A stretch of 48,173 bases of DNA. It comes from a virus. Shown piece by piece: positions 4,471 to 48,173 of this stretch. The DNA lies in the IMG/VR virus record IMGVR_UViG_3300048838_000916, positions 1-48,173 of that record; one strand, written 5' to 3'. Made by a program: the position numbers and the translations under genes. Within the stretch, counting starts at the first letter, position 1, and each line of letters begins with the position of its first letter. The notes under the pieces are model-generated. The model had not been told where the DNA came from. It saw nothing but the letters and a program-made list of their open reading frames with translations, and did no database searches.

Positions 4471-4495
4471 AGAAAGGTCAAAAGTTGACGTTTCT
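4471..4495. repeat. 25-bp palindrome, copy 2
   Basis: Left arm AGAAAGGTCA, centre AAAGT, right arm TGACGTTTCT (one mismatch). It lies between the scaffold stop and the ribosome site of the coat gene. Confidence 0.85.
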
Positions 4496-8766: not shown

Positions 8767-8791
8767 AGAAAGGTCAATAAATGACTTTTCT
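8767..8791. repeat. 25-bp palindrome, copy 3
   Basis: Left arm AGAAAGGTCA, centre ATAAA, right arm TGACTTTTCT (one change, wobble-compatible on the plus-sense RNA). It lies between the 73-aa gene and the terL ribosome site, touching the former's stop. Confidence 0.85.
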
Positions 8792-12929: not shown

Positions 12930-12954
12930 AGAAAAGTCAACTTTTGACCTTTCT
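12930..12954. repeat. 25-bp palindrome, copy 4
   Basis: Left arm AGAAAAGTCA (one change), centre ACTTT, right arm TGACCTTTCT. The only copy upstream of the first late gene, about 170 bp from its start. Confidence 0.85.
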
Positions 12955-14333: not shown

Positions 14334-14358
14334 AGAAAGGTCAAAAAATGACCTTTCT
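14334..14358. repeat. 25-bp palindrome, copy 5
   Basis: Perfect arms AGAAAGGTCA/TGACCTTTCT with centre AAAAA. Flanking GGG and CCC extend the stem to 13 bp (14331-14361). It stands about 40 bp before the mirror-image element. Confidence 0.9.
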
Positions 14359-14395: not shown

Positions 14396-14540
14396 GCTGT
14401 ACTAGGTACTAGGTACTAGGTACTACCATATCGTGTGCTAGTGCTAGTGCTAGTATCCGTGGATGATGAAAATTCGGTGACCTTTTCCTTTCTGGGAAAA
14501 TAAAACGCTTAAATCCTTCCCAGAGTTCTTTCTTCTAAGC
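14396..14540 (+). repeat. Left arm of the mirror-image element
   Basis: Order: GCTGTACTA start; GTACTAG units of 7 bp (14399-14425); 10-12 bp spacer; CTAGTGCTAGTGCTAGTA (14438-14455, period 6); 22-bp spacer starting with CCGTGG; TGACCTTTTCCTTTCTGG (14478-14495); CTTCCC (14516-14521); TTCTAAGC (14533-14540). Each element has a partner in the right arm in inverted order. Confidence 0.85.
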
Positions 14541-14660: not shown

Positions 14661-14775
14661 GCTTAGAACAGAAGCGGGAAGCCAGAAAAGAAAAGGTCAC
14701 ACAATATTGGCACCACGGCGGTTACTAGCACTAGCACTAGGGCGGGGTGTGGTAGTAGGTAGTAGGTAGTACAGC
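14661..14775 (-). repeat. Right arm of the mirror-image element
   Basis: Read on the minus strand it repeats the left arm: GTACTACC-type 7-bp units (14772-14751), 10-bp spacer, CTAGTGCTAGTGCTAGTA (14740-14723, 18 of 18 identical to the left arm), 23-bp spacer with CCGTGG, TGACCTTTTCTTTTCTGG (14699-14682, 17 of 18), CTTCCC (14681-14676), TTCTAAGC (14668-14661). Confidence 0.85.
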
Positions 14776-15131: not shown

Positions 15132-15353
15132 ATGGAAAGCGTTCTTTTTGTGCTAGTCAAGACAAAGAAAGGCCCAATCCTTAAACGCGAGGATATTTAC
15201 TGCACAACCCGCGCAGTGGATCACTCCCATAACTACGGACTGGTGGCGAATCAGGTCTTTCAGGATTACACCAGTGCAGTAGAGCTGGAAAAGAACTGCA
15301 CCTACACAGTGGAAGTGCGCCATCCTCAAGTAGTTTTGAGGTGCGAAACGTAA
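15132..15353 (+). CDS. Hypothetical protein, 73 aa
   Basis: Start chosen at ATG 15132, because GGAGGTG lies just upstream and the previous stop is adjacent. Short beta-rich protein (MESVLFVLVKTKKGPILKRE at the N-terminus, CTYTVEVRHPQVVLRCET at the C-terminus). No recognised family. The stop codon touches palindrome copy 6. Confidence 0.65.
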   Translation: MESVLFVLVKTKKGPILKREDIYCTTRAVDHSHNYGLVANQVFQDYTSAVELEKNCTYTVEVRHPQVVLRCET

Positions 15354-15377
15354 GAAAGGTCAGAAATTGACCTTTCT
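15353..15377. repeat. 25-bp palindrome, copy 6
   Basis: Perfect arms AGAAAGGTCA/TGACCTTTCT, centre GAAAT. Begins at the last base of the 73-aa gene's stop and is followed directly by a GGGAA repeat. Confidence 0.9.
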
Positions 15378-16880: not shown

Positions 16881-17210
16881 ATGCCTGAATTCATCACCGT
16901 CAAAGCAGCTTATGGGAAGGAATTAAACTCCGAGAAAGAGGTCCTTCAGCACTACCTCGACGGAAAAGACTTTATGATCCTTTCCCTTCACCACGGCGCG
17001 GGTTCCTACTTAAACATCCTCGATTGCGAAAGAGCAAAGAAGCCCATTTCCCTTGAGGTAAGGTTTGGTAAGAAAAGTCAAAAAGTGACCATTCTTGATA
17101 CCAGTGATGCGACAGAGTTAAAAAGGAAACTCGAAAGGAAAGCTAAAAGAGGTAAGAATGTGGTAGTTTTTGGAGAATCTTATATGAAGCAGGATGAAGG
17201 AGTGATGTAA
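16881..17210 (+). CDS. Hypothetical protein, 109 aa
   Basis: Start chosen at ATG 16881 (MPEFITVKAAYGKEL) with AAGGAAC upstream. Contains LQHYLDGKDFMILSLHHGAG and a basic C-terminal stretch (LKRKLERKAKRGKNVVVFG). Palindrome copy 7 lies inside the gene and encodes KKSQKVTIL. No family recognised. Confidence 0.7.
   Translation: MPEFITVKAAYGKELNSEKEVLQHYLDGKDFMILSLHHGAGSYLNILDCERAKKPISLEVRFGKKSQKVTILDTSDATELKRKLERKAKRGKNVVVFGESYMKQDEGVM
17071..17095. repeat. 25-bp palindrome, copy 7 (inside a gene)
   Basis: Left arm AGAAAAGTCA, centre AAAAG, right arm TGACCATTCT. One of three copies located within coding sequence. Confidence 0.85.
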
Positions 17211-20395: not shown

Positions 20396-20833
20396 ATGGC
20401 TGCAACTCACACCGCAAACATCTTAAAAGCCTGCGCCGAGCTAAACCCAGGAGAATCCTTTGTTTATACATTCCCCACTGAAAAGATCGCACACAACGAG
20501 TATTGTTATTTCCGCACCTCTCTGCGAGCGGCTCTGCAGAAGTTTCCTGCGGCGAAAAACCTCACTCTTTCTCGTCAAGGTTCATCAGTTACCATCTCCA
20601 TGGGAGTACCTGATATTCTCTACCCTACTCCCAAACGGGTCAAAACCTCTGAACTTTTTATCGAAATGGAAGAAAAGTCAAAAGATGACCTTTCTGAAAA
20701 GCCGCACCCTCACCAAGGGATTTTAGACCGCATAAATTCTGACCTCGCGGAGGGTTTAATCTCTCCTTCTGAAGCGGCAGAGGCAATTAACTCCATTCTA
20801 ACTTGCACTCCCTCAAACTCACAGGAGCTATAA
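20396..20833 (+). CDS. Local family protein with helical tail, 145 aa
   Basis: ATG 20396 follows GGGAAGGAGG. The N-terminal ~75 residues (ILKACAELNPGESFVYTFPT, then TLSRQGSSVTISM) resemble the 20146 product. The C-terminal ~40 residues form a short helical hairpin (ILDRINSDLAEGLISPSEAA) like SHOCT-type tails. Palindrome copy 8 lies within the gene and encodes EKSKDDLSE. The role is unknown; the tail may mediate self-association. Confidence 0.65.
   Translation: MAATHTANILKACAELNPGESFVYTFPTEKIAHNEYCYFRTSLRAALQKFPAAKNLTLSRQGSSVTISMGVPDILYPTPKRVKTSELFIEMEEKSKDDLSEKPHPHQGILDRINSDLAEGLISPSEAAEAINSILTCTPSNSQEL
20671..20695. repeat. 25-bp palindrome, copy 8 (inside a gene)
   Basis: Left arm AGAAAAGTCA, centre AAAGA, right arm TGACCTTTCT. 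Lies in the linker region between the two parts of the 145-aa protein. Confidence 0.85.
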
Positions 20834-23550: not shown

Positions 23551-23575
23551 AGAAAGGTCACTTATTGACCATTCT
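23551..23575. repeat. 25-bp palindrome, copy 9
   Basis: Left arm AGAAAGGTCA, centre CTTAT, right arm TGACCATTCT. It lies 34 bp upstream of the -35 box of the promoter at 23609, making it a plausible operator for the ribbon-helix-helix gene. Confidence 0.85.
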
Positions 23576-27118: not shown

Positions 27119-27143
27119 AGAAAAGTCAATAATTGACCTTTCT
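27119..27143. repeat. 25-bp palindrome, copy 10
   Basis: Left arm AGAAAAGTCA, centre ATAAT, right arm TGACCTTTCT. Followed within 8 bp by a terminator-like hairpin. Confidence 0.9.
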
Positions 27144-28373: not shown

Positions 28374-28751
28374 ATGCCATTCGTCTATGTCCTCTCCCCT
28401 TATACCTCTCCCTCTGAAGTTGAGATGAATGTGCGGGCGCATTTTGCTGCGTGCGCGGTGGCTGAGCTGATGGAGAAGCCTCAGTTTAATGGGTATGTTT
28501 TCTTCTCTCCCATCATTCACTATCACCAAGTAGCAGTGCGCTCGAAGGGTCTTCCACGCGACGCCAGCTTTTGGTGGAACATAAACCTCACCTTCATGCG
28601 AATGGCTACCCACGCAGTTGTGCTGCAGATGCCTGGATGGAAAGAGTCAAATGGCATCCGAAAGGAGCTTCACTGGTTTACCAACAACCAAGAACTCTCC
28701 AATGCCCCGGCTGAGATCATATACTACAACACTAACTGGGAGAATTTCTAA
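28374..28751 (+). CDS. DUF1937 protein, deoxyribosyltransferase-like, 125 aa
   Basis: ATG 28374 follows GGAG. The sequence pattern FVYVLSPYT, then FFSPIIHYHQVA, LPRDASFWWNINLTFMRMA and MPGWKESNGIRKELHW is that of DUF1937, a Rossmann-like family related to nucleoside 2-deoxyribosyltransferases. A role in nucleotide metabolism is therefore likely, but the exact reaction is unknown. The TAA overlaps the next ATG. Confidence 0.75.
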   Translation: MPFVYVLSPYTSPSEVEMNVRAHFAACAVAELMEKPQFNGYVFFSPIIHYHQVAVRSKGLPRDASFWWNINLTFMRMATHAVVLQMPGWKESNGIRKELHWFTNNQELSNAPAEIIYYNTNWENF

Positions 28752-30097
28752 TGGAAACTGTACGCCCTCAGCTGGAAGTGTTTTACGTTTCCCCACTCAA
28801 GATCAAAGTCAACAAAGACCTCCCGCGCTTTCGTGAGGAAATGGGTGATGTTGATGATCTTGCTCTTTCACTGGTAGAAAAAGGTCAGCTTCAGCCAATC
28901 GTCATCAACAGGGAAATGGAATTGATTGCTGGTGGTCGCCGTTTAGCAGCTTGCCTAAAGGCACAGATAGACGTCCTCTGCATCTTCAACGACGCGGTCG
29001 ATTCACTGACCATGCGGGAGCTTGAAATTGAAGAAAACATACAGCGGAAACAATTCACCCCTGCCGAGGAATTCAAAGCCATTGCCGAGATTCATGCCCT
29101 TAAGCAACAGCGATTTGGAGGCACTATCCAAGGACGCAAGGGCGGCCACACTTTACAGGACACGGCTAATCTCCTGGGAAAATCAAAGGCAAAGGTTATC
29201 GAAGCTCTCTCCCTCGCTGACGCGGTCAACCGATTCCCTGAGCTTAAGAACTGCAAGAAAGCATCAGAAATTAAAAAGGCTGTCAAAGCAATCGAATCAG
29301 TCGCTAATCGCGCGGAAAAGTCTGCAGGATATCAAGCTGAAATTATTGCTATGCAGCAGACTGAACGGCTCCCTTATGAAGTGTACAAATGCTCAGCAGA
29401 GGAGTTCTATTCTAAGCTCGAGCCAGAAAGCGTTGACATACTACTCGCGGACCCTCCTTACGGAATCGACATTGATAAGACTGCCACTTCTGTTGGAGGA
29501 ATTACAGGCGGCACTAACTCTGCTGGATTCACTTTCGATGATAGTACCGAACGAGCTCTCGTACTCTATCGCGAGCTTGCAGAAAGAAGCATCATATTTA
29601 CAAAACCTTCTTCCCATGCTTATGTGTTCTGTGGGCCTGAACACTTCTGGGCAGTGCGAGAAATGTTCAAGTCGGTTGGCTGGCTGTGTTATCCAAAGCC
29701 CATCATCTGGATCAAGCGAGAAGTCGGACAGTGTAATGTCCCCCATGCCTGGCCAGCATCTTGCTATGAAATGCTTATGTACGCTAGACGAGTTGACTCC
29801 ACCCTCGTTAAACAAGGACAGCCTGACTGGATCGATTGTCCTCCAATCCAAGCAGGAGCTAAGCGACATCCGACAGAAAAACCAATCGCGCTCCTTAGGA
29901 ATCTTCTCCAGCGGGTTGCCCTTCCGGGCGCGGTAGTGGTTGACCCGTTCATGGGCTCTGGCTCTGCAATCGAAGCCGCTTGCATAGAACAGTGTTTCGC
30001 AAAAGGCTGCGACATCCTTGAAGAAAGCTACAATGTTACCATCGAACGTCTTGTTGAATGGAGCCGTAACCAGCAGCTCATCAACGCAATGTGTTAA
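28751..30097 (+). CDS. ParB-like domain fused to DNA methyltransferase, 448 aa
   Basis: ATG 28751 by TAATG overlap, with GGGAG upstream. Residues ~1-130 are a ParB/Srx-type domain (GGRRLAA at 61-67, EENIQRKQFTPAEEFKAIAE). Residues ~215-448 are an amino-methyltransferase: catalytic DPPYG at 234-238 (N4-C or N6-A type), SAM-binding VVDPFMGSGSAIEAA around D398, an order (IV before I) typical of the beta class. No restriction enzyme partner was seen nearby. Likely protects phage DNA from host restriction, or marks it. The ParB part may supply DNA targeting. Confidence 0.85.
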   Translation: METVRPQLEVFYVSPLKIKVNKDLPRFREEMGDVDDLALSLVEKGQLQPIVINREMELIAGGRRLAACLKAQIDVLCIFNDAVDSLTMRELEIEENIQRKQFTPAEEFKAIAEIHALKQQRFGGTIQGRKGGHTLQDTANLLGKSKAKVIEALSLADAVNRFPELKNCKKASEIKKAVKAIESVANRAEKSAGYQAEIIAMQQTERLPYEVYKCSAEEFYSKLEPESVDILLADPPYGIDIDKTATSVGGITGGTNSAGFTFDDSTERALVLYRELAERSIIFTKPSSHAYVFCGPEHFWAVREMFKSVGWLCYPKPIIWIKREVGQCNVPHAWPASCYEMLMYARRVDSTLVKQGQPDWIDCPPIQAGAKRHPTEKPIALLRNLLQRVALPGAVVVDPFMGSGSAIEAACIEQCFAKGCDILEESYNVTIERLVEWSRNQQLINAMC

Positions 30098-30110: not shown

Positions 30111-33100
30111 ATGCTAAACCTCGTCAATACCACAGGGCCTGCCAACGCGCGCATAATGCTCGTTGGTGAGGCTCCAGGTAAAGAAGAGCAGATGACTGGC
30201 GAACCATTTGCTGGTACCAACGGGAGAGTCCTTAACCAGCTTCTCTCAGCTGCCGGCTTGTTCAAACAGTCCTGCCTTCTCACCAACGTAGCTCGCCAGA
30301 TGCCCCCAGGAAAGAACATCTCTCTTTTCTTTGAGGATCGCCTATGCACTCAGCCCAAACCCATGCTCCGTGAGTGGATGCACATGCTTGCGGCTGACAT
30401 TCAAACCTATAAGCCCAACGTCATTGTTGCCCTCGGTCGCACCGCTCTCTGGGCACTCACCGGCTTCACCAAGATTTCCCAATTCCGCGGGTATCTTTGT
30501 GAGTGCTCCCTCGTTCCTGGCTTCAAAGTCCTTCCAACCTTTCACCCCCGCTATGTCATTGAGAATTGGAAAGAATCCTTCACAGTGGTGATGGACCTTC
30601 GAAAGGCTGTGCGCGAAAGCACTACCCCAGAAATGCCTCCAGACACTCGCACCTTAATCCCCGAAGCTTCTCTCGATGAATGGATTAAGTATTGTGACTT
30701 CCTTGCTGAGCAAGAATGTCCAGTCGCATTTGACATTGAAACCACAGGAAATCGCTGCCACACCCACCGAGTAGGGTTCGCGCACAATGCAAACTTTGGT
30801 ATGTCAATCGGAATCCTCAATGGTCTTTACCCAAAGTACTCAACCCAAGACGAAGTTGCCTTCTGGGACTCCGTCACAAACGTACTGAACCACTGCCCAG
30901 TGATTCTTCAAAACGGCTCCTTCGACATCGGAGCTATCTTCCACCACGTTGGAGTGCTCCCTAAAAAGCTCTTCTTCGACACCCACATCGCAGCACACGT
31001 CTGCTGGCCCGAAACTCCTCGAAGCCTGTCCTATCTCGCTTCGATGTTTCTCAATGTCCCAGCATGGAAGCACACTGGTGGCGACGACAACGGCCTTTAC
31101 AACGCCGCCGACTGCGCTAACACCTTCGGCATTTACCAAGGACTTCAAAACGAAATAGAAGCTCAAGGTCTCACGGAAGTCTTTATGTTTGAGCTGTCCC
31201 AGATCTACCCCGCCGTTATGCTCCAGCTCCAAGGCATCCTCATCGACGAAGACCGTAGGCAAAAAATCGCTTGCTTCGCGCAGGAGGAAATGGATGAAAT
31301 CCAGGAAGGACTCAATCGTATCCTTAAGAAAGACATCAACATGCGGTCTCCAAAGCAAATGCAGCAACTCCTGTATATTGACCTCGGACTTCCCGTCCAG
31401 TACAAACGTCGCAAGTCTGCGAATGACGCTCGTACTGTTACTACAGATGCGACGGCACTTGCTAATCTCGAGCGTACCTGTAAGCACCCTGCTCTTGCTC
31501 TCATCATGCGATATAAGAAACTTGACAAATTGGTATCAAATTTCTTGGACATTGAAGTCTCTCCCGAGGGTCGTGTATACACTTGTTACAACATTACAGG
31601 CGCGACAATGCGCCGAGAAAACAAAGGATTCGTAGTTGACGACGAAGATTCCTACCGCTCCTTTGGCCGCTGGAGTTCCTCCGGCTCCATCATTCTCCCA
31701 TACGGCCCAGGCAACCTTCAAAACATCCCCAAGGCTGCCCGAAAAATATTCGTACCTCCCAAGGGATACCTTCTCCTCCAGGCTGACTATAAACAAGCAG
31801 AAGCTGTCGTCGTCGCATACCTCATCAACGATGTAAAGCTGAAGAAACTCTTCCAAGATTCCTTCGGAAAGAGCGATGAAGAGTGTGTCGCTAATGGCTG
31901 GGACGTACACAAAATAACTGCTGCGCCAATGTTCGGATGCTCAGTTCTTGACGTCACAAAAGAACAGCGGACTGTAGGTAAAACCATCCGCCATGCCTGT
32001 GTTGATAAGGATACCGAAGTCTTGACAAAACGCGGGTGGGTAAAGATCTCCACCTTCAACAAAGAAACAGACGAGGTTGCCCAGTACTGGGAAGACGGTA
32101 CCATCTCATTTACAAAACCAATTGAAACAGTACAATATCCGTACAACGGAGTACTATACGAATTCAAGCAACCTTCTCTACACCAAGTAGTATCACCCGG
32201 CCACCGAATGCTTGTAACAAATAGAAAGAACAAGAAAAATTACGTACGCCTCAGCCAGGATGTATTTGACACTCGTAATGCTGATTACAAAATCCCAATC
32301 GCAGGTCAATACAAACCTGAGGTAGTATGTGATTTCTCTGAATCAGTTTTTCGCTTGTTCGTCGCAATCCAAGCAGATGGTTCTTACCGCCAGCGTGGAA
32401 TGAAAAAGGAAATAACCTTTCATATCCAGAAGGAACGAAAGCTCATTCGTCTTCGACAGCTTCTTGTTGACGCTGAAATCATGTTCACCGAAACAGTACG
32501 TCCTGATGGAATCCAGCATGACTTCTACATCGGAGGAAGTAACGAACCAAACGTCAGCCTTTTCGCACTCATCTCTCAGACAGAAAAAATGTTTGGGCCT
32601 TGGGTGCTTAATCTCACTTCCTCGCAGATGTCAGCAATGGTTGACGAAACGCGCTGGTGGGATTCACGACGTAACGAATCTGGAAACAGCTGGCAATACT
32701 ACTCTCAATACAAAGAAAACTGCGACTGGGTAGCTACGATGTGTCACCTCTCCGGGCGCAAAGGTACTGTATCAGCAACACACCCAACAGTATACACAAC
32801 AAACATATCTGACGTAGATGCGGTATGTTTTGATAAGTCTGAACGGAACTACGTACCATACAGTGATTGCATTTACTCTATGCAAGTTCCGTCGTCATAC
32901 TATCTAATCCGCAAAGGGAGTATCATCAGTGTCACTGGTAACACTAACTATTCAGCTGGGCCGGACGTTGTTGCTAATAGACTAGGTATCACCAGAAAGG
33001 AAGCTAAGTCCTATCTTGACCGCTACCATGCTGGAACTCCACAACTCCATCTTTGGCACCAGCGAATCCAGGATGAGCTACAACGTACCAGAGTTCTTAC

Positions 33101-33455
33101 AAACCTCTTTGGAAGAAAGCATCGCTTCCTTGACCGTTGGGGAGACTCTCTCTTTCGAAGTGCCTATTCATTCATCCCTCAAAGTACTGTTGGAGATCTC
33201 CTTAACCACGCACTCATCAATATCTATAACAATCTCAACTCCTGGTGCCACCTCGCACTACAGCTTCACGACGCAGTGTACGTCTATGTAAAGCCTACTG
33301 ATCTCCCTGACGCAATCCACGCCCTCAGAGAGAACATGATCATCCCTCTTCAAACCGAGCAGGGCGAGGAATTCACCATCGACGTAGACTTCTCCGTCGG
33401 CGAGACCTGGGGTGAAATGGAAACTGTTTCTTGGCACCCCAAGAAAAGTCAATAA
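30111..33455 (+). CDS. UDG - family A DNA polymerase fusion containing an intein, 1114 aa
   Basis: ATG 30111 follows TAGGAG. Domains: residues ~1-165 uracil-DNA glycosylase-like (GEAPGKEEQMTGEPFAGTNG; FHPRYV at the end; N-terminal Fe-S cysteines of family 4 missing); ~200-380 a 3'-5' exonuclease (Exo I D208 in FDIETTG, Exo II NGSFD, Exo III YNAAD); ~480-1114 the polymerase palm and fingers (motif A D559 in ADYKQAE; motif B RTVGKTIRHA interrupted after residue 629; motif C LHDAVYV with D1054 but Ala instead of the usual Glu). A 315-residue intein occupies 630-944, so the mature protein would be ~799 aa. The main replicative polymerase is inferred. Confidence 0.9.
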   Translation: MLNLVNTTGPANARIMLVGEAPGKEEQMTGEPFAGTNGRVLNQLLSAAGLFKQSCLLTNVARQMPPGKNISLFFEDRLCTQPKPMLREWMHMLAADIQTYKPNVIVALGRTALWALTGFTKISQFRGYLCECSLVPGFKVLPTFHPRYVIENWKESFTVVMDLRKAVRESTTPEMPPDTRTLIPEASLDEWIKYCDFLAEQECPVAFDIETTGNRCHTHRVGFAHNANFGMSIGILNGLYPKYSTQDEVAFWDSVTNVLNHCPVILQNGSFDIGAIFHHVGVLPKKLFFDTHIAAHVCWPETPRSLSYLASMFLNVPAWKHTGGDDNGLYNAADCANTFGIYQGLQNEIEAQGLTEVFMFELSQIYPAVMLQLQGILIDEDRRQKIACFAQEEMDEIQEGLNRILKKDINMRSPKQMQQLLYIDLGLPVQYKRRKSANDARTVTTDATALANLERTCKHPALALIMRYKKLDKLVSNFLDIEVSPEGRVYTCYNITGATMRRENKGFVVDDEDSYRSFGRWSSSGSIILPYGPGNLQNIPKAARKIFVPPKGYLLLQADYKQAEAVVVAYLINDVKLKKLFQDSFGKSDEECVANGWDVHKITAAPMFGCSVLDVTKEQRTVGKTIRHACVDKDTEVLTKRGWVKISTFNKETDEVAQYWEDGTISFTKPIETVQYPYNGVLYEFKQPSLHQVVSPGHRMLVTNRKNKKNYVRLSQDVFDTRNADYKIPIAGQYKPEVVCDFSESVFRLFVAIQADGSYRQRGMKKEITFHIQKERKLIRLRQLLVDAEIMFTETVRPDGIQHDFYIGGSNEPNVSLFALISQTEKMFGPWVLNLTSSQMSAMVDETRWWDSRRNESGNSWQYYSQYKENCDWVATMCHLSGRKGTVSATHPTVYTTNISDVDAVCFDKSERNYVPYSDCIYSMQVPSSYYLIRKGSIISVTGNTNYSAGPDVVANRLGITRKEAKSYLDRYHAGTPQLHLWHQRIQDELQRTRVLTNLFGRKHRFLDRWGDSLFRSAYSFIPQSTVGDLLNHALINIYNNLNSWCHLALQLHDAVYVYVKPTDLPDAIHALRENMIIPLQTEQGEEFTIDVDFSVGETWGEMETVSWHPKKSQ
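31998..32942 (+). other. Intein within polymerase motif B, 315 residues
   Basis: Begins with Cys630 (CVDKDTEVLTKRGWVKI), has the block-B-like HQVVSPGHRMLV, and ends IYSMQVPSSYYLIRKGSIIS then VTGN944, followed by Thr as the +1 residue. The penultimate residue is Gly instead of the usual His. The middle contains LFVAIQADGSYRQRG and a second similar stretch, a degenerate LAGLIDADG homing-endonuclease core. Removal would join IRHA to TNYSAGP and restore motif B (R-x3-K-x6-Y). Confidence 0.9.
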
Positions 33456-33466
33456 TTGACCTTTCT
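33442..33466. repeat. 25-bp palindrome, copy 11
   Basis: Left arm AGAAAAGTCA, centre ATAAT, right arm TGACCTTTCT. The polymerase stop codon (33453-33455) lies in its centre, and the ribosome site of the next gene follows at once. Confidence 0.9.
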
Positions 33467-35974: not shown

Positions 35975-35999
35975 AGAAAAGTCAATAGTTGACCTTTCT
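35975..35999. repeat. 25-bp palindrome, copy 12
   Basis: Left arm AGAAAAGTCA, centre ATAGT, right arm TGACCTTTCT; flanking TGGG and CCCA extend the pairing to 14 bp. It separates the 1719-aa virion gene from the lysis genes, suggesting independent control of lysis. Confidence 0.9.
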
Positions 36000-41184: not shown

Positions 41185-41209
41185 AGAAAGGTCATTAATT
41201 GACTTTTCT
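41185..41209. repeat. 25-bp palindrome, copy 13
   Basis: Left arm AGAAAGGTCA, centre TTAAT, right arm TGACTTTTCT. The stop of the 290-aa gene (41195-41197) lies within it, and the ribosome site of the giant gene follows. Confidence 0.85.
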
Positions 41210-44523: not shown

Positions 44524-47217
44524 CTATGGATACCATCTACTACCGAATGCCTTTCTGCGAACTCCGTTTTCTGCTGCCCACCATATAATATAGAATCCAG
44601 AAGCATCCCATGCGCTATACCATGTATTTGGAGTCATTGACCCATATGAATAACTCATGTTTGTTGAGTAATTATAGGTACACACGGCCCACGGTCTATT
44701 AACTCTAACAACGTAAGGCCAGGGCAAACTACCAGAAGTTGGAGCAGCACAACCAGTGCCACTTGGCATCGGGTCGCAAAGAACACTAACACTTGCAACA
44801 GCGCCACAACCATCAACCCACGAAGCTGTATAGTAATAACCTGGCGTAGCGCCAGATGGCATCCGTAGAATAATCCCGCTGCTCGAACTACTCACATACT
44901 CAAGCTCACCCGTGTATTCTACTTCGAAAGTAAGGCTATGCGAAAAATAGCCAGTAGCTCCTTGTGCTAATTTACTAGGTCCTGTAGCAACCCCGGTTCC
45001 ACCTGTTGTATCACTCGCTGAAAGCGAATCTCCACAAGCATCGGAAACATTCACGGACGAGTAGCAACCGCCCGAGGCATCCGCGTAAACCGTTCGCGTC
45101 AGTGCGAGTTGCGACTTTGAAAGAACAGCCCCACCTGAGTTTCTGAAAATGACATTCGTTCCGAGCCAATCAAACGGCGGACATCCTCCAATAAATGTAA
45201 GCTGGAGTGTTTCGCCAACTTCAATGACTCCGTACTCAGCGCTCCACTCCATAGTCTCCTCGCAAAGACATGGATCATTCATAAACCTGCGCTCGCACTT
45301 AACCACACCACCATCGACATTAGACGCAGGGTACGACACACCGCCAACAAGCACCTTCACTTCGTGCTCTTCGTCAACGTCTTCTGGAACTTGCGCTATG
45401 AAACCTAGTCGTGTACTCCAATTTCCAGTTGCATCTGGCATTGAGTGATAACCAAGCGGGGCAAGTACAGTCATGTTCTCGGTGTACTCGTGGCCGTGTG
45501 CGAGAATCCACTCGTCAGAGTCTCCGCCCATAAGGGTAAAGTAAACGACCTCACCAGGACTTTGGCCAGCAACCGGGACCGAGCAAAGAGCGCAGGAGTT
45601 ACCGACTGCAGTAGCATTGGACCATAGCACTCCGCCGTCCAAGTGCCAAAGACCGTCGAACAGAAAGTAGAACCCATCCACCACACCAGGCGAATCGAAG
45701 TTTGGCGGAACAGTCCCGAGTGCAAGGTAAAACCGCTTGCTGTTTTTCAAGTCCTCACGGAAGAACTTCGCCCACTGCTGGTACGGGGTCCATTGCCCTG
45801 GGCATTCACCAAGGTAACCTTCTGGGTCAGTGTAAACGCCACACGTTCCAGCACAGTCAGCCGACCAAGTGCACGACGGACCATTTTGCTGTACTTCCTC
45901 GTCTTCAAAGAAGAAATTGTCGCAGAGGTAGTCAGCCTCACAGTGAAGCATTGCGCCAAAAAGCCCATCCCATGACTGCACTGCGATTTGCTGAGAAATC
46001 TCACCTTCAACAGAGAGGTCTGAAAACTCAATTGCGCCAGTTGAAAGGGCGATCTCGATCTTGATAAAACGCGGGGCGAGAATCCATGTCAGCGAATCAC
46101 CGGCGTAGTCAAGACACCCTGCGACAATCTGAGAGATACCGTTCCCACCCCAACACCTATCTTCTTTCGTACCAGAAAAGTACATACTCGGCGCGAGGGC
46201 AAGAATTGTTACCCTCCCCTCCTCAACATCCAGTGGAAAAGCGCACAGTGACGCGAAGCGGTACAGGTCTTTAGTGTGATTGAAATACGGATCGCCAGCG
46301 GGGTTATCCAGTTTGTTCCGATAAATCCCTGGTATCGTGTCGGAGTTCCCAAAGAAATCATCATCACTTCCGATGTCCACATGGTAGCCAATGGTCTTGT
46401 TTGGGGAGAAGTACGAGCCAGTGCACTTACGGTGAATCCAGCATGGATTTGGATGCAGGACCGCAACCGACAACTCTCCGGATTCGGCAAGCGAAAGCGT
46501 GTTCAGTTCGAAATACTTAAGATCAACGTCAATTCCTTCTGGCCCATTCGAAAGCTCAACCACCCGCACCGAAACATCCTGACCCTTGTCGCTGTGAATA
46601 ATCGAGAACTTGTCCTGCCCAATGACCGTAATGCGAGAAGAAGGATTCGTATTTGCTGGCAGCTTGATTGTACCCTTCTCCTGACCCTCACCGATTATCA
46701 CCCCGCAATTCTGGGACAGGACATATCTTGTCGCAGGATCATCGTTGAAGCACCCTGCAATCATGCCCGGAGCGTTGAGTGCAAAGCCAGGGTAAACAAA
46801 CGACTCTGTTATCCCATCGGAAGCCGTTACTGTTGCAGCAAACTTAGTCAGTATAACTACAGGATTTCCATCCCTGTCTTGCCTAACTTCAACCCAAAAA
46901 TACCCTTGCGACGTAATCACATAAAAAGTTTTAACGACCTCTTCCTCAGAAGAGTCAACAATTGACCTTTCTTCAATCACCCTTTGTCTAATAGGAGAAT
47001 AAAGTTGAACACTTTCTTCGCCGTAAAAATACTGACCAAATACACTAGTACCAGTTTCTTCAAAGAACATCGCAAAGCGATCTTGTTTTAGTCCTGCTTC
47101 TTTACACCTTCGTACGAATGCTTTGAATTTTGAAAGTACAACAGGAAGATGCCAGCGAGCGGCGTCTTCGTTACCCTGGAGAAATATTCGGGTATTACTG
47201 TTGTCGAACATTTTCAC
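44524..47217 (-). CDS. Large cysteine-rich tail/appendage protein, 897 aa
   Basis: GTG 47217 overlaps the previous stop (GTGA) behind GGAG. A long, acidic, beta-rich protein with many cysteines (e.g. CTWSADCAGTCGVYTDPEGY, CLCEETMEWSAEYGVIEVGE), Ig-like stretches (LQLTFIGGCPPFDWLGTNV) and several GW/GG turns. The Cys pairs could form disulfides in the particle outside the cell. A host-recognition or appendage role is inferred. Palindrome copy 14 lies near the 5' end of the gene. Confidence 0.7.
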   Translation of the reverse strand: MKMFDNSNTRIFLQGNEDAARWHLPVVLSKFKAFVRRCKEAGLKQDRFAMFFEETGTSVFGQYFYGEESVQLYSPIRQRVIEERSIVDSSEEEVVKTFYVITSQGYFWVEVRQDRDGNPVVILTKFAATVTASDGITESFVYPGFALNAPGMIAGCFNDDPATRYVLSQNCGVIIGEGQEKGTIKLPANTNPSSRITVIGQDKFSIIHSDKGQDVSVRVVELSNGPEGIDVDLKYFELNTLSLAESGELSVAVLHPNPCWIHRKCTGSYFSPNKTIGYHVDIGSDDDFFGNSDTIPGIYRNKLDNPAGDPYFNHTKDLYRFASLCAFPLDVEEGRVTILALAPSMYFSGTKEDRCWGGNGISQIVAGCLDYAGDSLTWILAPRFIKIEIALSTGAIEFSDLSVEGEISQQIAVQSWDGLFGAMLHCEADYLCDNFFFEDEEVQQNGPSCTWSADCAGTCGVYTDPEGYLGECPGQWTPYQQWAKFFREDLKNSKRFYLALGTVPPNFDSPGVVDGFYFLFDGLWHLDGGVLWSNATAVGNSCALCSVPVAGQSPGEVVYFTLMGGDSDEWILAHGHEYTENMTVLAPLGYHSMPDATGNWSTRLGFIAQVPEDVDEEHEVKVLVGGVSYPASNVDGGVVKCERRFMNDPCLCEETMEWSAEYGVIEVGETLQLTFIGGCPPFDWLGTNVIFRNSGGAVLSKSQLALTRTVYADASGGCYSSVNVSDACGDSLSASDTTGGTGVATGPSKLAQGATGYFSHSLTFEVEYTGELEYVSSSSSGIILRMPSGATPGYYYTASWVDGCGAVASVSVLCDPMPSGTGCAAPTSGSLPWPYVVRVNRPWAVCTYNYSTNMSYSYGSMTPNTWYSAWDASGFYIIWWAAENGVRRKAFGSRWYP
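46948..46972. repeat. 25-bp palindrome, copy 14 (inside a gene)
   Basis: Left arm AGAAGAGTCA (two changes), centre ACAAT, right arm TGACCTTTCT. It lies about 245 bp into the 897-aa tail protein gene, encoding part of a serine- and glutamate-rich stretch (EERSIVDSSEE). Confidence 0.75.
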
Positions 47218-47710: not shown

Positions 47711-48173
47711 TTAGATGTTTCTACGCGCATTAGAGTATCGTAAGACAACATCACTTTCGTTACCGTAGTTATTTGCGGCAGTTGAGATACACACACCTTT
47801 GATAAGTAATAATGGTATTAACACTTCACCAGTTATTATATTAAGTGCTTTACCAACAGCACCAGCAATTGTAATACTTGGTACTTTAATACTCCCAGAC
47901 ATCCACTGAATTTCTTCAATCTCGCCACCTAACTGGAAAAGAGGTAATCTAACAGCACCATTAATCGTACCTTGCTGCTGAAGCTGTCCAAATACTGAAA
48001 GACAGAACAAGTCTATGATTCCTTCAGTCTGCATTTCACCAGAAAAGAAAAGCAATGGGAGATTTATACTGCAGTCTATTTTTGCTGAAACACCGATTTC
48101 ACCAGTAATTGCGACAGACGGTAATCTAAAACTCCCGACAATAAAATCTTGAAACTTACTGTGTATCAGCAAC
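47711..48173 (-). CDS. Repeat-rich virion protein, C-terminal part (continues at 276-1)
   Basis: Reading from the window's right edge, this is the remaining part of the 198-codon gene that starts at 276. The repeat pattern continues (for example GSIKVPSITIAGAVG and GEVLIPLLLIKG), ending RYSNARRNI. Bases 48032-48173 duplicate 1-142. Two of the terminal differences change residues (V to I, G to S). Confidence 0.7.
   Translation of the reverse strand, partial: LLIHSKFQDFIVGSFRLPSVAITGEIGVSAKIDCSINLPLLFFSGEMQTEGIIDLFCLSVFGQLQQQGTINGAVRLPLFQLGGEIEEIQWMSGSIKVPSITIAGAVGKALNIITGEVLIPLLLIKGVCISTAANNYGNESDVVLRYSNARRNI
48032..48173. repeat. Terminal overlap, right copy (matches 1-142)
   Basis: Pairs with the left copy. 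The three mismatches cluster in the last 20 bases of the window, as expected for a contig end from a mixed population, or for a slightly diverged copy. Confidence 0.85.

Follow-up and report, generated by a model that had tools for sequence, protein, structure and literature searches.

The window, by which we mean the whole 48,173-nucleotide viral record analyzed here, carries a gene for a protein with UDG, 3'-5' exonuclease and family-A DNA polymerase (DNA_pol_A) domains, all three recognized by Pfam, and the DNA_pol_A match is broken in two by an in-frame insert (Table 1). The PF00476 match runs on the DNA from 31278 to 32000 (profile positions 11 to 217) and resumes from 32949 to 33416 (profile positions 219 to 381); the first segment ends at residue 630 of the open reading frame (ORF), and the second begins a few codons past the far end of the insert. 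Subtracting the 315-aa insert from the 1114-aa ORF gives a predicted spliced product of 799 aa. The G+C content of the insert is 44.1%, versus 50.7% for the N-extein, a difference compatible with a foreign origin. The ORF directly upstream of the polymerase encodes ParB-like and DNA methyltransferase domains. The first and last 142 nt of the record form a direct repeat with 139 identical positions, which suggests a nearly complete genome that is terminally redundant or circular. In profile searches of this record for polymerases, one family-A match was recovered, the one split by the insert, and neither a family-B polymerase nor a second family-A match was found.

Table 1. Positions, in window coordinates, of the features discussed in the text
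Feature	Position	Strand	Length or remarks
ORF with ParB-like and DNA methyltransferase domains	28751-30097		
UDG / 3'-5' exonuclease / family-A DNA polymerase ORF carrying the intein	30111-33455	+	1114 aa
N-extein, aa 1-629	30111-31997	+	C-terminal end ...RTVGKTIRHA (motif B)
Intein, C1 to N315 (ORF residues 630-944)	31998-32942	+	315 aa; tblastn 1-315 to inteins of unrelated genes; empty sites
Intein block A	31998-32036	+	CVDKDTEVLTKRG; Cys1 nucleophile invariant
Intein block B	32193-32213	+	SPGHRML; H69 invariant
LAGLIDADG-type endonuclease domain (predicted)	32328-32825	+	~aa 111-276
First LAGLIDADG helix and acid D127	32340-32381	+	..VAIQADG
Second LAGLIDADG helix and acid D222	32619-32666	+	..ETRWWDS
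Intein block F	32868-32915	+	CIYSMQVPSSYYLIRK; F:4 = Ser294, Cys in compared family relatives
Intein block G	32922-32942	+	IISVTGN; Gly penultimate, Asn terminal
C-extein including stop	32943-33455	+	starts at +1 Thr, TNYSAGPD...; motif C LQLHDAV
Palindrome copies 1-7	2359-2383, 4471-4495, 8767-8791, 12930-12954, 14334-14358, 15353-15377, 17071-17095		25 bp
Palindrome copies 8-14	20671-20695, 23551-23575, 27119-27143, 33442-33466, 35975-35999, 41185-41209, 46948-46972		25 bp
Inverted repeat arms	14406-14459 and 14719-14772		54 nt each, 259 nt apart
Terminal direct repeat	1-142 and 48032-48173		142 nt

Identity and boundaries of the insert

When the insert was used as a tblastn query, phage primase, NAMPT, RNR, RtcB and primase-helicase genes were matched across residues 1 to 315 (best E value, 4e-29; 125 records with coverage of at least 80%). 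Because these matches in phage genes span the entire insert, its ends are right to the residue, and because they begin and end at identical residues in unrelated proteins, the insert is an intein and not a chance resemblance. Four related contigs (L004 to L007), whose polymerases are ~52% identical to the exteins, read RHA/TNYSAG or near variants across the same point, with no insert. The original prediction of an intein at this place, running from a Cys to an Asn followed by Thr, is thus borne out at both ends, and the empty alleles are uninterrupted. As the insert lies in frame within a probably essential gene, one might instead take it for an additional domain of the polymerase and no intein at all. 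However, its full-length homology to segments of unrelated proteins, and the existence of ~52%-identical relatives that lack it at one exact point, reduce the probability of such a domain to almost nothing.

The features that define a class 1 intein are present: an invariant Cys at position 1 (where Cys or Ser is expected), the invariant block B His (H69), a C-terminal Asn or Gln followed by Cys, Ser or Thr at +1 (here N315 and Thr), and exact absence from homologous hosts (L004 to L007). Two less stringent features are missing, namely, the penultimate His that is usual in class 1 inteins but dispensable (here Gly314) and the assisting, less conserved Asp or Cys at block F position 4 (F:4; here Ser294). 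A class 3 intein, which has no nucleophile at position 1 and has Cys at F:4, was ruled out by Cys1 together with the Ser at F:4. In one of the intein-free relatives (L006) the +1 residue is Asn, which could not act as a nucleophile. The NCBIfam model TIGR01445 (intein_Nterm) matched at the correct location with 20.0 to 22.5 bits (E values from 0.001 to 9e-6), under its curated cutoff of 24.5 bits, and a Pfam search of the polymerase ORF returned zero intein matches; standard intein models may overlook elements like this one. Matches to spike glycoproteins in the PDB (E values of 0.37 and above) were set aside as chance.

Our preferred reading, to which we assign a probability of roughly 90%, is that of a class 1, LAGLIDADG-bearing homing intein located in motif B of the only recognized polymerase of this virus, such that splicing is required for replication. 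In the proposed sequence of events, Cys1 would attack the Ala-Cys bond, the N-extein would be transferred to Thr+1, and Asn315 would then cyclize and the exteins ligate, yielding the 799-aa polymerase with its O-helix intact.

Insertion point within the O-helix

In an alignment with Taq polymerase, RTVGKTI is motif B (R...K), and the insert is placed after RTVGKTIRHA, five residues past the invariant motif B Lys (K+5), at a point that we take to correspond to G763/L764 of the E. coli enzyme. Because NYS, on the C-terminal side of the insert, is part of the same O-helix, this helix is broken in the precursor, and, given its known role, the unspliced precursor should be without a working O-helix and so unable to polymerize. 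The Taq alignment confirms the earlier placement in motif B, and the role of the O-helix lends support to the accompanying expectation that unspliced protein should be inactive.

The original prediction had also proposed looking for other inteins at the same insertion point. Two occupy it: one from a 43-kb viral contig (L002), found in the viral contig search, which is 93% identical to the window intein, and a very different one from L121 (IMGVR_UViG_3300029922_000014). The latter lies at NFG/SLYG, the identical K+5 point, and reads NFG/CVPLDTE...VTGN/SLYG; it has Cys rather than Ser at F:4. Because the L121 and window inteins are alike over the first 53 residues only (34% identity; E value, 0.008), the K+5 point was probably invaded separately, and the L121 intein looks like such a separate invasion. 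A second position in motif B of phage family-A polymerases, K-A/C, one residue past the Lys (K+1) and four before the window site, is occupied in Lactococcus phage KSY1 gp096, Salmonella phage Ent2 gp37 and viral contig L123. The KSY1 and Ent2 PolA proteins are annotated as intein containing (the Ent2 annotation lists splicing domains only), and in the annotated phage collection it was only in records of these two phages that polymerase and intein aligned jointly. L123 and L121 emerged from two viral contig scans; the L123 intein is 31% identical to that of the window and ends in Gly-Gln rather than Gly-Asn. Pattern scans for motif B inteins returned chiefly TerL inteins or chance matches, the only polymerases being L113 (the contig of L002), L121, L123 and L124, a 79,232-base viral contig with the same PolA intein sequence as KSY1. 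In the intein tree, most forks were open and derivation from the K+1 site was neither favored nor disfavored; L123 was among the rows nearest to the window intein.

Taken together, the alignments show the O-helix as a repeated target of inteins, at two positions four residues apart, one of which (K+5) is occupied by very different inteins in the window and in L121. We found no paper describing the K+5 site, although the literature was covered in part and this is no proof of absence. Few inteins have been described in phage family-A polymerases, and the present case is a further one, with its position known exactly. What is new is the K+5 position and one altered helper residue; otherwise, this is an ordinary mobile element of its phage family. 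In Caulobacter phage Kuura (OQ067476.1, 25619-28855), a relative of the UDG-polymerase was matched in two pieces, and three small hypothetical proteins are annotated beneath the match; an intron or an insertion is possible there.

Splicing residues

Across 19 related inteins, C1, H69, G314, N315, D127, W221 and D222 are invariant, and all relatives aligned over the C terminus have a Gly-Asn end. Since G314 is invariant among these 19, the penultimate Gly is a family trait. Class 1 inteins of this kind in A1 mycobacteriophage primases (Michley/Turj99), staphylococcal phage NAMPT (Stab23), RNR and RtcB are, like the window intein, of a 315-residue scale, align with it end to end in the same block order and share its LAGLIDADG-type core (ADG...WDG) and terminal [TSC]GN; they differ in identity (27 to 31%), in host gene and in having Cys, not Ser, at F:4. 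PI-SceI, PI-PfuI and TliVMA, whose structures have been solved, likewise have a two-motif LAGLIDADG endonuclease set into a Hint splicing domain, as in our model of the window intein, but are larger, are 11 to 16% identical to it and have a penultimate His. The penultimate Gly had been expected to slow cleavage. We find this difficult to maintain given that the residue is family-wide and that in the Bethlehem RDF intein, a phage class 1 intein from a different host gene, splicing was complete with the native penultimate Gly, whereas the G316H variant was slowed, needing >5 h to reach approximately half splicing (PMC5050341).

A feature that escaped the original prediction is the residue at F:4, which is Ser in the window and in L002 and Cys in all compared family relatives. 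This position is usually Asp or Cys, assists the acyl shifts and is less conserved (PMC4031507, PMC10663303); a Ser here might slow splicing. Furthermore, the window intein lacks the usual helpers of C-terminal cleavage, since His is missing both from block F and from the penultimate position. These missing helpers, and the location of the insert within the active site of the only recognized polymerase, could be read as a regulatory switch, in which slow or conditional splicing times the activation of the polymerase during infection. Apart from these two features, however, nothing speaks for timed splicing; fast splicing is compatible with a penultimate Gly (PMC5050341), a residue found throughout the family, conditional splicing is shown by no relative or experiment, and the intein-free relatives do without it. 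We therefore consider such a switch improbable, and slightly more so its specific form, in which the F:4 Ser and the absence of both C-terminal His helpers would make splicing slow or responsive to conditions, so that the sole polymerase is stored inactive and released by splicing. A more drastic consequence of having S294 instead of the family's Cys would be that splicing has been lost and the polymerase is now a pseudogene. This seems very unlikely, as the reading frame through the intein and both exteins is uninterrupted and conserved between two divergent genomes (dN/dS, 0.04 to 0.07) and no second polymerase was found in the record. If the intein does splice, polymerase activity could report splicing yield, and, F:4 being naturally Ser, the role of this position could be probed with a one-residue change.

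Endonuclease domain, selection and distribution

An AlphaFold model of the intein, built on six sequences and of moderate confidence (pLDDT, 72.6), has helices at residues 115 to 127 and 208 to 220, with strands and helices in LAGLIDADG (alpha-beta-beta-alpha) order. In this model, each of the two helices is followed by an acidic residue; D127 closes the first, D222 comes after the second, and both are invariant. The top Foldseek match of the model was the TliVMA intein (E value, 1.4e-12), and VIA-align gave Z scores of 19.2 for TliVMA, 17.2 for PI-SceI, 16.2 for PI-PfuI and 12.8 for I-DmoI, the last over 150 residues (model residues 113 to 275). The I-DmoI alignment starts with model residue 113 at I-DmoI residue 7, which would put D127 at I-DmoI position 21, the catalytic Asp of that enzyme.

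Between the window and L002, the N-extein had a dN/dS of 0.036 and the C-extein one of 0.035, the latter calculated on the shared part because the L002 polymerase terminates a few codons sooner; the values were 0.044 in the splicing parts and 0.068 (0.028 to 0.144) in the endonuclease region. The endonuclease region is thus under purifying selection, which could partly reflect folding required for splicing. The original prediction saw a degenerate core and an endonuclease that may have lost activity. We saw no sequence signs of such decay, with D127 and D222 kept and invariant, a predicted two-motif LAGLIDADG fold and a low dN/dS. The intein may nevertheless splice while its endonuclease no longer cuts, having been retained since precise loss from motif B is hard. 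The motifs are indeed not textbook ones (AIQADG and WWDS, the second with Ser where most relatives have Gly), and the allele was found in two contigs only among the viral contig scans. Against this, both acids are retained, the predicted fold is intact and the upper bound on dN/dS is 0.144, and we regard a dead endonuclease as unlikely, if a more serious contender than a switch or a pseudogene. In the preferred reading of a homing intein, the inner domain most likely cleaves intein-free alleles of the insertion site, and the intein would be copied into the cut alleles by repair during coinfection; the window intein thus probably homes.

Because the surroundings of the intein in the window and L002 are collinear, at 85 to 93% nucleotide identity, the two inteins were probably passed on together with the rest of the genome; the intein and the genes beside it seem to have reached both by vertical descent, and a recent homing event was not caught. 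A scan of genome contigs gave as its sole match a distant polymerase on a Dehalococcoidia MAG contig (L087). Searches seeded with single intein relatives added few loci, and that seeded with the Staphylococcus NAMPT intein added none.

Two further repeat families were noted. A 25-bp palindrome, AGAAARGTCAnnnnnTGACCTTTCT, occurs in 14 copies genome-wide against a chance expectation of 0, with three further copies in a related contig (L003); L004 to L007 had no convincing copy, with one 3-mismatch match in L006. These palindromes are possibly binding sites for a protein, forming an operator- or stoperator-like network, or else intergenic hairpins. One copy (33442-33466) overlaps the polymerase stop codon, the same place at which the L002 polymerase ends a few codons earlier. 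Finally, a pair of inverted repeat arms is made up of CTAGTA-like units.
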